This document shows positions 7,494 through 58,562 of a stretch of 64,000 bases of DNA, piece by piece; the first letter of the stretch is position 1; each line of letters opens with the position of its first letter. The translations under genes were made by a program, and so were the position numbers. The notes under the pieces were generated by a model. The model was given only the letters and a program-made list of their open reading frames with translations. It was not told the DNA's origin and searched no databases. Source of the stretch: Gammaproteobacteria bacterium (lineage in GTDB: Bacteria; Pseudomonadota; Gammaproteobacteria; Pseudomonadales; Pseudomonadaceae); assembly GCA_903970465.1 (NCBI GenBank), contig CAJCIO010000059.1, positions 1 through 64,000 of the forward strand. The letters are read 5' to 3'.

Positions 7494-8168
7494 TTACTTG
7501 CTCGCCACTGGCGGCTTGACCCACACCGGCGACAGGTTGCTGCCGGTGCCGGTGACGTACAGCACGGCCGCTTCACCGCGTTCCAGGGCAACCGGCTTGA
7601 GGTCCGAGACCTTCTTGTCGCCCTGATACAGCGCCAGGGTGACTTTCACCGGATTGATTTCACGATCGCCGTGGGCCTTGGGGGCCACGGAAGGGACCAC
7701 GTCGGTTTTACCGTCGGCGGTTTTCAGGGTCAGGGGCGCGTCGGTGAGGTTCTGCACGCGCACCAGGGATTTCTGCTTGTTCTTGAACGGAGGCTCATCC
7801 ACCAGCACAGGCTGGCCGCTGCCGTTATTGACGATGGTGTAGTACTGGTCCGAAGCCAGCTTCACCGGCAAGGTAGCGCTGCCGATCTTGGCGCTGTAGT
7901 CGCCTTGCGGCATGAAGCTGAAAGCGCTGCTGCCCTGCACGGGGATTTCATTGAGGCTGGTATTGCCGACGCTGGCAGCGACCGGTTGGTTGCCGGCGTT
8001 GTAGACCCGTACAAAAGTCGAGCCCTTGGGCGCGGTGGGGCCATACAGGGCCGAGTCACCGGCGGCGAAGGCCTGGACCGACAGCAGGCTCATGCCCGCG
8101 ACCAGGGCGCAGGCCTTGGCGATACGTTTGACAGCCGGGGTACGGGTGGCGGCAGTAGCGTTAGTCAT
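7494..8168 (-). CDS. algF: Alginate O-acetylation protein AlgF
   Basis: A periplasmic partner of AlgI/AlgJ/AlgX needed to acetylate mannuronate residues. The 224-residue precursor has a long signal peptide ending near residue 36 (SVQAFA-A), followed by beta-sandwich-like domains with FVRVYNAG and LVRVQNLTDAPL. The ribosome binding site AAGAGGAA lies 7 bases before the ATG. It sits between algJ and algA, the canonical order. No enzymatic residues are known for this family; its role is thought to be as an adaptor. Confidence 0.95.
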   Translation of the reverse strand: MTNATAATRTPAVKRIAKACALVAGMSLLSVQAFAAGDSALYGPTAPKGSTFVRVYNAGNQPVAASVGNTSLNEIPVQGSSAFSFMPQGDYSAKIGSATLPVKLASDQYYTIVNNGSGQPVLVDEPPFKNKQKSLVRVQNLTDAPLTLKTADGKTDVVPSVAPKAHGDREINPVKVTLALYQGDKKVSDLKPVALERGEAAVLYVTGTGSNLSPVWVKPPVASK

Positions 8169-52144: not shown

Positions 52145-53269
52145 CTAGCCGCGGTAATAACGCTGAACCACGAAGGGCATCTTGCTGACCTTGACCGCTA
52201 CACGCTTGCCGCGCACCACGGCCCACAAGTCGCTGTCCAGCGCAGTGTGAGCCGTATCGACATAGGCCATGGCCACCGGCGCGCCCAAGGTCGGACCGAA
52301 GCCACCGCTGCACACACTGCCCACTACCTTGCCCTCGGCATCCACCACCTCGGCACCTTCACGTACCGGGGTACGCTCTTGTGGCAGCAGGCCGACGCGC
52401 TTGCGGGCGATGCCATCACGCTGCTGGGCGAAGATCACCTCGGCACCCGGGAAACCGCCCGCCCGCGGACCGTCGCTACGACGGGCCTTGGAGATGGTCC
52501 ACAGCAGGCTGGCTTCGATGGGAGTGGTTTCGCTATTCATGTCATGGCCATACAGGCACAGCCCGGCTTCCAGGCGCAGCGAGTCGCGGGCGCCGAGGCC
52601 GATCGCGGCGACTTCCGGCTCGGCCAGCAGACGGCGTGCCAAGGCTTCGGCGTGTTCGGCGGGCACGGATATTTCGAAGCCATCTTCACCGGTGTAGCCG
52701 GAGCGGCTGACGTAGCAGTCGATGCCATCGATGCTGACGGCGGCGAACTGCATGAAGGTCATGGTTGCGACGCTGGGCGCCAGGCGCGCCAGCACGGTAA
52801 CGGCAGCGGGGCCTTGCAGCGCCAGCAGCGCGCGCTGTTCGAACAATGGCTCGACGGTGCACTGGTCGCCCAGGTGGGCGCGCAGATGGGCCAGGTCTTG
52901 CTCTTTGCAGGCGGCATTGACCACCAGAAACAGCTGGTCGTCGCCCAGGTTGGCGACCATCAGGTCATCGAGGATGCCACCCTGAGGATTGGTGAACATT
53001 GCATAGCGCTGCATGCCCACGGGCAGGTCGATGATATCTACGGGTACCAGCGCCTCGAGGGCCTTGGCGGCGTCGACGCCGGTGAGGCGAATCTGGCCCA
53101 TGTGCGAGACGTCGAACAGGCCGGCCTGTTCGCGACTGTGCAGGTGTTCCTTCATGACGCCCAGCGGGTATTGCACAGGCATGTCATAGCCGGCGAACGG
53201 CACCATGCGCGCGCCCAATTCGAGGTGCAAGGCGTGCAGGGGAGTGTGTTGCAGGGATTCGGTGGACAT
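52145..53269 (-). CDS. gcvT: Glycine cleavage system T protein (aminomethyltransferase)
   Basis: Transfers the methylene of H-protein-bound aminomethyl to tetrahydrofolate and releases ammonia. 374 residues starting MSTESLQHTPL; the YDMPVQYP, FDVSHMGQ and GARDSLRLEAGLCLYG motifs mark the folate-binding fold, with D-containing LRLEAG near the catalytic region. AAGGAACC precedes the ATG at 53269. Separated from gcvP by 174 bases that contain a REP. Confidence 0.95.
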   Translation of the reverse strand: MSTESLQHTPLHALHLELGARMVPFAGYDMPVQYPLGVMKEHLHSREQAGLFDVSHMGQIRLTGVDAAKALEALVPVDIIDLPVGMQRYAMFTNPQGGILDDLMVANLGDDQLFLVVNAACKEQDLAHLRAHLGDQCTVEPLFEQRALLALQGPAAVTVLARLAPSVATMTFMQFAAVSIDGIDCYVSRSGYTGEDGFEISVPAEHAEALARRLLAEPEVAAIGLGARDSLRLEAGLCLYGHDMNSETTPIEASLLWTISKARRSDGPRAGGFPGAEVIFAQQRDGIARKRVGLLPQERTPVREGAEVVDAEGKVVGSVCSGGFGPTLGAPVAMAYVDTAHTALDSDLWAVVRGKRVAVKVSKMPFVVQRYYRG

Positions 53270-53340
53270 GGAGAGGGTTCCTTGAAAATTGGGCAGGCCC
53301 GCGCTCGGTGAGAATTCTATGGTTTTGCGCCAGCGGTCCC

Positions 53341-53405
53341 GGCCTCTTCGCGGGCAAGCCTTGCTCCTACAGCGCGAGTCGTACACCTGTAGGAGCGGCT
53401 TACCC
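53341..53405. repeat. REP element 13 (gcvP-gcvT gap)
   Basis: An intact arm GGCCTCTTCGCGGGCAAGCC (53341) and a truncated opposite arm CCTGTAGGAGCGGCTTACCC (53386). Confidence 0.8.
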
Positions 53406-53443
53406 AAAACCAGAGAATCTCCCACAAGGGAGTGTGCGTGAAG

Positions 53444-56305
<2,862 letters not shown>

Positions 56306-56315
56306 GACGGATTCC

Positions 56316-56693
56316 TTAGCCTTGGGCGCTGATCAAGTTGTCATAGGCTAGCTGATCGAGCAGCGTATCGAGTTGACCGGCGTCGGCTGGCACGAAACGA
56401 AAGAACCAGCCGTCGCCCAGCGGGGCGTCGTTGACCAGCTCCGGGGTGGCGTCCAGCGCGCTGTTGACTTCGACCACCTCGCCGTCCAAGGGCATGTTGA
56501 TGCTGCTGGCGGCCTTGACCGATTCCACCACCGAGACTTCGGCATGCTGGCTGTAGCGGGCCAGGTCCGGCAACTGCACGAAGACCACATCGCCCAAGGC
56601 GTTCTGGGCGAAGGCGGTGATGCCGACGGTGACGCTGCCATCGGCTTCCAGACGCAGCCATTCGTGCTCCACGGTAAAACGCAACTCGCTCAT
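56316..56693 (-). CDS. gcvH: Glycine cleavage system H protein
   Basis: The lipoylated shuttle protein, 125 residues. The lipoyl-lysine is K60 in [12 protein letters not shown]. The fold is the usual hammerhead barrel ([20 protein letters not shown], then [11 protein letters not shown]). First gene of gcvHPT and nearest to the sigma-54 promoter. Confidence 0.96.
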
Positions 56694-56774
56694 TGAAACT
56701 CCTCAGGGACAGCGCTATGGGCTGGCCGATGCAAAGGTGGCCCGCGCAGGCTTGGGCTGATCTGGCAGCATGGT

Positions 56775-56793
56775 TTGCAAGTTTGTTGCCAAG
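56775..56793 (-). promoter_or_regulatory. Sigma-54 promoter of gcvHPT
   Basis: On the minus strand CTTGGCAACAAACTTGCAA has the GG (-24, 56789-56790) and GC (-12, 56777-56778) exactly 10 bases apart and a good TTGGCA...TTGCA match. The start would be near 56766, 73 bases before gcvH. Confidence 0.75.
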
Positions 56794-56857
56794 TTGGGGT
56801 GGGTGTCGGAAACAGCGGGGTTGGGGGCGTTTTTGCGCTTTTCAGCGTGGGGGCGGC

Positions 56858-56875
56858 TGGAACGAAATCGATACG
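56858..56875 (-). promoter_or_regulatory. GcsR-like box A
   Basis: Minus strand CGTATCG-ATTT-CGTTCCA matches TGTAACG-N4-CGTTCCG, the GcsR motif as I recall it from P. aeruginosa, at 11 of 14 fixed positions. Centre about 77 bases upstream of the -24 element. Confidence 0.6.
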
Positions 56876-56937
56876 GCTGGTGGGGGTTTATAAAGTGGCG
56901 TCTATTCAGCGCCTTACCGGCGGGCCTTGGAGGCTAT

Positions 56938-56955
56938 TGGAACGATTTCGATACG
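56938..56955 (-). promoter_or_regulatory. GcsR-like box B
   Basis: Minus strand CGTATCG-AAAT-CGTTCCA, the same half-sites as box A, centred 80 bases further upstream. Confidence 0.6.
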
Positions 56956-56956
56956 A

Positions 56957-56974
56957 TGTAACGGTTTCGTTCCG
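56957..56974 (+). promoter_or_regulatory. GcsR box C (exact match, opposite orientation)
   Basis: Plus strand TGTAACG-GTTT-CGTTCCG matches the fixed positions of the GcsR motif exactly, one base away from box B and in the reverse orientation. Confidence 0.7.
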
Positions 56975-56994: not shown

Positions 56995-57043
56995 GGCCGC
57001 TTCGCGAGCAGGCTTTGCTCTCTGAACTGCCCGCGAAGATGCC
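56995..57043. repeat. Degenerate REP element 14
   Basis: GGCCGCTTCGCGAGCAGGCT (56995) and a truncated opposite arm CTGCCCGCGAAGATGCC (57027), just past the gcsR stop codon. Confidence 0.65.
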
Positions 57044-57053
57044 GGATGCCGCG

Positions 57054-58562
57054 CTAGAGATCCCTGGGAATACCGTACTTGCGCAACCGATGGGCAATCG
57101 CTGTATGAGAGGTCTGCAACCGCGCCGCCAACTGCCGAGTGGAGGGGTAGTTGACGTAGAGCTTCTCCAACAGCGCTTTCTCGAAGCCTTCCACGGCCTG
57201 TTCCAGGCTATCGATCTCGATATCGCTCTGGCGCGCGACCGAGGTGCCGGCGATGTCCAGGTCGCCGATATCCACCAAGGTGCTCTCGCAGATGGCCGCC
57301 GCGCGGAAGATCACGTTTTGCAACTGACGGACATTGCCCGGCCAGCGGTTGCCCAGCAGCGCCGGATAGGTGCCGGGCGCCAGCCGGCACAGCGGGCGCT
57401 GAATCTGGGTGCAGGCCTGCTGCATGAAATAGCGCGCCAGCATCAGGATGTCCTGGCCACGTTCGCGCAGCGGCGGCACCTCCAGCGACAGCACGTTGAG
57501 ACGGTAGTAGAGGTCTTCGCGGAAGGTGCCTTCGGCGACCATCTTTTGCAGGTTGCGATGGGTGGCGCTGAGGATGCGCACATCGACCTTGACCTCCCGG
57601 TCGCCGCCTACTCGCCGGAAGCTGCCGTCATTGAGAAAGCGCAGGAGCTTGGCTTGCAGATAGGGAGACATTTCGCCGATCTCGTCGAGAAACACCGTGC
57701 CTTGGTTGGCCAGCTCCATCAGGCCTGGTTTACCGCCGCGTTGAGCACCGGTGAACGCGCCGGGGGCATAACCGAACAGCTCGCTTTCAGCCAGATTCTC
57801 GGGCAATGCCGCGCAGTTGAGCGCCAAAAACGGCGAGCTGTGGCGTGCGCTGATGGCATGGCAGCCGCGGGCGACCAGTTCCTTGCCGGTCCCGGTTTCA
57901 CCCTGGATCAGCAGGGGGGCATCGAGCGCCGCCACTCGCAGCGCGCGGGTCTTGAGGGTGCGGATGGGCGGTGAATCGCCCAGCAGCGAGTCGAAGCCCT
58001 CGGCGTGATCATGGTGCAGTGCGGCCAAGCGTTCGCCCATGCGATTGGGCGGGTAGAGGGTCACCAAGGCGCCGGCGTCGGTGATGGGCGTGGCGTCGAG
58101 CAGCAGGGTCTGGCCATTGAGCAGCACCTCGCGCAGCGGTAGCCGAAAGCCTTGCTCGATCAGGGTGGCCAGCAGTTCATCGTCGCCCAGCAGCTGGCCG
58201 AGGAATTCGTCACGCGGATCGCGGCCATAGAGGGCGATCAACGCCGGATTGGCCAGCAACACTCGGCCGACGCTGTCCAGCGCCAATACCGGGTCGGCCA
58301 TGGCCGCCAGCAGTGCTTCGAGCTGCAGGTGCCGACGCTGCCCTGGCAGGATGTCGACCACGGTGACTGCCTGCACGCCGCGCACGCTGAGCAGCGCGTG
58401 ATGAAGCTCCTCGAGGACCTGAGTGCTCAGTGTCGGCGCGTCGATATAGACATTCGGCGGGACCATCTCCACGGCATCCAGATTGAGGTTGCGAGCCCCC
58501 AGTATCGCCAGTACTTCCTGGGTGATGCCGACTCGGTCGATGAAACTGACGTGGATGCGCAT
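57054..58562 (-). CDS. gcsR: TyrR-like sigma-54 activator GcsR
   Basis: An enhancer-binding protein of 502 residues: N-terminal ACT domain ([20 protein letters not shown]), a PAS domain (about 80-170, [20 protein letters not shown]), an AAA+ domain with Walker A GETGTGKE, the sigma-54 contact loop GAFTGA and Walker B VFLDEIGE, and a C-terminal TyrR-type HTH ([20 protein letters not shown]). The intact GAFTGA means it can activate sigma-54, unlike E. coli TyrR. In P. aeruginosa GcsR turns on glycine cleavage genes in response to glycine, and the neighbouring boxes and promoter support that here. Confidence 0.93.

Follow-up and report, generated by a model that had tools for sequence, protein, structure and literature searches.

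Control of a glycine catabolic operon by GcsR and RpoN through three sites has been published for Pseudomonas aeruginosa, and further GcsR sites were predicted in Pf0-1, KT2440, and DC3000 (PMC4894688). The three sites were demonstrated by EMSA, a P. aeruginosa reporter in E. coli was dependent on glycine, GcsR, and RpoN, and the PAO1 operon was tied to gcsR by RNA-seq (PMC4894688), while in vivo binding at gcvH2 was obtained by both 3D-seq and ChIP-seq (PMC9159945). The three 18-bp sites are called a "tandem repeat" by the authors (PMC4894688); by word search, "spacing", "inverted", and "looping" are absent from the main text of that paper, and its lone "orientation" concerns a plasmid. Here, we analyzed a 64-kb stretch of DNA (hereafter, the window) in which a sequence-only reading had placed three GcsR-like boxes and a sigma-54 promoter in control of gcvHPT, with an arrangement that was thought to differ from that of P. 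aeruginosa. We conclude that this is very likely a regular sigma-54 promoter of the kind by which GcsR controls the glycine catabolic operon in Pseudomonas: the observation is correct and the biology ordinary, the notable departure being the absence of an IHF-type site.

For the comparison, GcsR was searched in 248 family genomes, 107 of which (own genome included) had a match at E ≤ 1e−150, and in a named genome collection, from which 80 loci were kept (18 of them Pseudomonas). The script used for placing gcvH received 156 sequences, i.e., the window, L001–L029 of the 80 named-collection loci, and L081–L206, with the distant relatives L030–L080 omitted. It placed gcvH downstream of gcsR in 102 of the 156 (the own locus being counted twice, as the window and as L081) and dropped the other 54. 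Two loci with a gcvH farther away, L009 (P. tremae) and L109 (hereafter L208), were restored to the set; many other dropped sequences reached only ~1.5 kb past gcsR, and the comparison is thus a selected one. Duplicate removal left 103 gcsR-gcvH loci, the window's own included. L208 was chosen to represent the P. aeruginosa group, partly for its operon content and the −79 position of its promoter; we take it to belong to this group, and its operon was read as gcvH-gcvP-glyA-sdaA-gcvT, glyA and sdaA being putative assignments. Two PCR primers did not single out a P. aeruginosa genome, the 16S primer matching 4 and the oprL primer 23 of 25 genomes.

The gcsR-gcvHPT locus and its three boxes

In the window, gcsR lies directly upstream of gcvH, followed by gcvP and gcvT, the gcsR orthologue thus adjoining the gcv operon (Table 1). 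The boxes and the −24/−12 site are all situated between gcsR and gcvH, with box C farthest from the promoter when following the coding direction. The gcsR ORF is 87–89% identical to its nearest same-genus copies, and its product matched Sigma54_activat (PF00158, 2.9e−66), AAA_lid_14 (PF25601), HTH_50 (PF18024), and PAS in Pfam; the GAFTGA loop can be read directly in the translation, and the sigma-54 AAA+ domain and the C-terminal HTH are both present. GcsR has been described with ACT and PAS domains (PMC4894688); the Pfam search retrieved the PAS match (3.2e−5) and no ACT model at E ≤ 0.001.

A search of the own genome for a second gcvP at E ≤ 0.001 gave only gcvP itself. The gap between gcvP and gcvT (174 bp, 53270–53443), which contains what looks like REP-type repeat sequence, lacks the putative sdaA-like gene that relatives such as L001 carry at this place; two other matches to this gene were found in the own genome, at 60% identity and one of them at a contig edge. 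The sequence around the gcsR end (~56995–57045) likewise resembles the REP repeats of fluorescens-type Pseudomonas. As a side observation, the gcvH match beside gcsR shows one internal TGA in three of the compared genomes (G024:C1:3157464-3157838, G145:C30:3706-4080, and G154:C1:2675430-2675804), which may be the natural stop, as the match extends to the final residue of the query.

Table 1 Features of the gcsR-gcvHPT locus (positions within the window)
Feature	Position	Strand	Description
Box C (distal)	56957..56974		TGTAACGGTTTCGTTCCG on +; 0 mismatches to TGTAACG-N4-CGTTCCG
Box B (middle)	56938..56955		3 mismatches in either direction; 1 bp from C
Box A (proximal)	56858..56875		3 mismatches in either direction; 80 bp from B
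Putative sigma-54 −24/−12 promoter	56776..56791	-	TGGCAACAAACTTGCA; 2 mismatches to TGGCACG-N4-TTGC
A to −24 linker	56792..56857		C-rich, 65% GC; without IHF-type site, best match 4 mismatches
Weak IHF-like sequence	56904..56916		2 mismatches, in the B–A linker; any function would be conjectural, may be nothing
gcsR	57054..58562	-	ORF; TyrR-like enhancer-binding protein (PAS, sigma-54 AAA+ with GAFTGA, HTH_50)
gcvH	56316..56693	-	Pfam GCV_H 3.5e−34
gcvP	53444..56305	-	Pfam GDC-P 4.2e−196
gcvT	52145..53269	-	Start = ATG at 53269, chosen by us; Pfam GCV_T 1.5e−88 on longer ORF

Three 18-bp boxes of the TGTAACG-N4-CGTTCCG type are present upstream of gcvH, and between them and this gene there is a putative RpoN −24/−12 site, recognized by sequence only and scored against the sigma-54 consensus TGGCACG-N4-TTGC; its −24 element is 77 bp from the centre of box A. 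The earlier reading had the boxes and the promoter right, as well as the following details: box C matches the GcsR motif exactly, the starts of A and B are 80 bp apart, and the single base 56956 separates B from C. In order to score the boxes, a half-site matrix was trained without the window's own locus, on 100 others, and gave 19.3 for C and 18.7 for both B and A, the next best site within the 64-kb window reaching 7.0. No site in 40 × 64 kb of Markov controls attained the score of the weakest box, and one of 20,000 simulated 360-bp intergenic sequences contained a site at this score. Because the training loci are relatives of the window locus, these scores measure family resemblance. By the published consensus, box C is the sole exact match in the 5.5-Mb genome, while boxes A and B are singly unremarkable, as the whole genome holds 255 matches at ≤ 3 mismatches vs. 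799 for the backward control; it is the clustering of A and B with C that is remarkable.

The letters of the boxes also bear on which protein uses them. Given the close similarity of GcsR and TyrR sites (PMC4894688), another TyrR-type regulator (PhhR-like) could be their main user instead of GcsR, which we consider highly improbable: the boxes carry CG at positions 6–7 and 12–13, the very difference described for GcsR, the PAO1 operon is linked to gcsR by the published RNA-seq (PMC4894688), and gcsR neighbours the boxes in the window, as it does in nearly all of the compared loci, which were selected for this. GcsR is thus retained as the predicted user of the boxes.

The half-sites are of more than one type across the family. 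The GcsR proteins of all 21 TGGA-type loci (G at half-site position 3 in 5–6 of the 6 halves), which fall among L167–L201, have Gly490 and Gln491; in the remaining 72, of TGTA or mixed type, residue 490 is Ala throughout (72/72), with His or Lys as residue 491 in 62. More than one GcsR was found in 17 family genomes, 15 of which hold a TGGA-type locus, the other copy having TGTA-type boxes in 15/15, and these pairs look like insulated duplicate circuits. In the GcsR tree (89 rows, 5 unclassed), the 18 Gly rows make up one clade, and therefore the pairing of Gly490 with TGGA counts as one evolutionary event; phylogeny was considered as independent support for the pairing of helix and half-site and was rejected, as the tree shows a single origin of the Gly form.

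Layout and direction of the boxes among relatives

All three boxes were recovered in 93 of the 103 gcsR-gcvH loci and in none of 309 simulated controls. Their spacing is nearly fixed in these 93 loci: B and C are 19 bp apart in 90 and 20 bp in 3; A and B are separated by 80–85 bp in 89 (81 in 58, 84 in 11, 82 in 6, 80 in 5, 83 in 5, and 85 in 4), the remaining ones having 70 (2 loci), 73 (1), or 59 bp (1); and the distance from the centre of A to −24 is 73–77 bp in 92 (75 in 41, 76 in 23, 74 in 21, 77 in 4, 73 in 3), with 62 bp in the last one. Thinning of similar promoters left 74 loci with the same picture (B–C of 19 bp in 72 and of 20 bp in 2). Most of the 10 loci without a full trio at the threshold used have one or two good boxes together with degenerate copies, and one (L138) has no strong box. 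In P. baltica (L008), the distal boxes are weak, and an inverted repeat can be seen by eye at ~7571–7659, in the linker between the distal and proximal boxes.

The 2+1 layout is therefore the norm among the loci compared, an ordinary arrangement. L208 displays it as well, with box spacings of 20 and 81 bp, and its sigma-54 site stands 79 bp before gcvH, the distance given for PAO1 (PMC4894688). Since L208 has the same 2+1 spacing, the P. aeruginosa arrangement appears to be that of the window, and the claim that the two differ was not upheld, with the trio present in 93/103 loci.

That claim had rested on direction, one box being taken as inverted and the layout as unusual enough to alter looping or cooperativity relative to P. 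aeruginosa. Read in the operon sense against the published consensus, box C has indeed 4 mismatches forward and 0 reversed, and its GGAACG-type half faces the opposite way from those of A and B; the opposite orientation noted earlier therefore holds for these halves but not for A and B as whole boxes, which are tied at 3 mismatches both ways. Further points in its favour come from the 93 loci, where L208 alone (1/93) has all three boxes nearer to the forward form, and the distal box (reversed in 38, forward in 6, tied in 49) and the middle box (58, 4, and 31, respectively) lean towards the reversed one, the proximal box being evenly divided (forward in 16, reversed in 15, tied in 62). However, the window's pattern (distal reversed, the other two tied) occurs in 14/93 loci, the arms are fully palindromic in many of the relatives' boxes, and L208 shares the spacing described above. 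In this comparison, the distal box is more often reversed than forward, the P. aeruginosa-group locus being the exception, and we regard a functionally distinct inverted box as very doubtful.

Box direction was accordingly rejected as a distinguishing feature after scoring in both directions in the 93 loci, although the family-wide reversed lean of the distal and middle boxes remains. As each box is a dimer site, its direction probably carries little information; the excess of reversed over forward forms (38 vs. 6 and 58 vs. 4) means that it may not be wholly neutral, and the lean may come from relatedness.

The linker between box A and the promoter

The linkers between box A and −24 were screened with the IHF consensus. 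A perfect match was found in 58 of the 93 loci and one mismatch in 24 more (0–1 mismatch in 82), compared with 0.6% and 9–11%, respectively, in shuffled linkers, and 11 loci had at least two mismatches. Position and direction are also regular, as 74 of the 87 matches with up to two mismatches run in one direction, 31–33 bp after box A. Nine of the 10 loci lacking the full trio have a site with 0–1 mismatch before −24 as well, the tenth being P. baltica L008. In the window, the same consensus search of this linker found 4 mismatches at best, and its GC content is the second highest of the 93 (mean 39%). In the GcsR tree, five relatives (L011, L014, L106, L107, and L108) group with the window and have an IHF match with 0–1 mismatch, while P. 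baltica, which is at the same open fork of this tree as the window, has no such site. By consensus matching, the missing IHF-type site is the one departure of the window promoter from its relatives. The weak IHF-like sequence of the window (Table 1) sits in the B–A linker, as far from box A as the CAAGGCTTTGATC (1 mismatch) of many relatives; matches with 0–1 mismatch are present in this linker in 30 of 91 loci. A word search of the GcsR paper finds no mention of IHF in its main text (PMC4894688), and "integration host factor" is absent among the literature matches listed for IHF with gcvH, Pseudomonas, or glycine cleavage.

This linker, with a best IHF match at 4 mismatches and 65% GC, in front of an operon without the sdaA-like gene, could suggest a decaying promoter in which GcsR control is weak or lost, all the more as P. 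baltica L008, near the window in the tree (open fork), combines 3 mismatches to the IHF consensus with weak distal boxes. Yet the three boxes of the window score high, with C exact and the distances in their usual range, the reading frames of gcsR and gcvHPT are open, and gcvP has no second match in the genome. Moreover, L208 of the P. aeruginosa group is also without an IHF match (5 mismatches at best), and the corresponding PAO1 promoter is experimentally functional. We thus find decay unlikely and keep the reading of a regular GcsR-dependent promoter.

GcsR dimers, supplied by the gene just upstream, would bind the three near-palindromic 18-bp boxes, C and B side by side (19 bp apart) and A 80 bp nearer to the promoter. 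In response to glycine, the dimers would assemble into an ATPase ring that reaches the sigma-54 polymerase at −24/−12, transcription would start near 56765, and gcvH, gcvP, and gcvT would be switched on. Between box A and −24, the DNA of most relatives is probably bent by IHF, whereas the window promoter would loop without the IHF bend or with another bend. Control of gcvHPT by GcsR and sigma-54 via three boxes, as first proposed for this locus, is well supported as a prediction by the comparison, while its claimed peculiarity found no such support; GcsR binding, the glycine response, and sigma-54 dependence are predicted here by analogy, and we infer them from the work on P. aeruginosa.

With the spacing of trio and promoter nearly fixed and the IHF-type site presumably lost here (and missing in L208), a single enhancer may occur naturally in forms that use IHF and in forms that do not, the latter having become IHF-independent through other looping, a suggestion that we make tentatively and hold to be somewhat less probable than its opposite. 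As for the arrangement itself, it is standard in the compared loci (distal pair at 19 bp, third box usually 81 bp on, and −24 a further ~75 bp away, most often across a gap that contains an IHF-type site). This spacing rule can aid the annotation of GcsR targets and helps in asking how much of sigma-54 enhancer geometry, as opposed to the bend, is essential.

Comparison with known systems

TyrR/PhhR boxes (TGTAAA-N6-TTTACA) are, like those of GcsR, near-palindromic 18-bp sites for TyrR-like proteins, and the GcsR boxes differ by their extra inner CG pairs (PMC4894688). Other Pseudomonas GcsR promoters share the trio and its geometry with the window and differ in the letters of their half-sites. 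For instance, the B–C, A–B, and A to −24 distances are 19/81/75 in L001 (P. brassicacearum) and 19/80/75 in L009 (P. tremae) vs. 19/80/77 in the window. The distal pair is 19 bp apart in the window and 20 bp in L208, and gcsR, directly upstream of gcvH here, is separated from it by ~3 kb in L208. The PAO1-type gcs2 order, gcvH-gcvP-glyA-sdaA-gcvT, is replaced in the window by gcvH-gcvP-gcvT without glyA or sdaA. As far as the PAO1 gcs2 promoter is described, it resembles that of the window in having gcsR near the operon, three 18-bp boxes, and a sigma-54 site before gcvH (PMC4894688).
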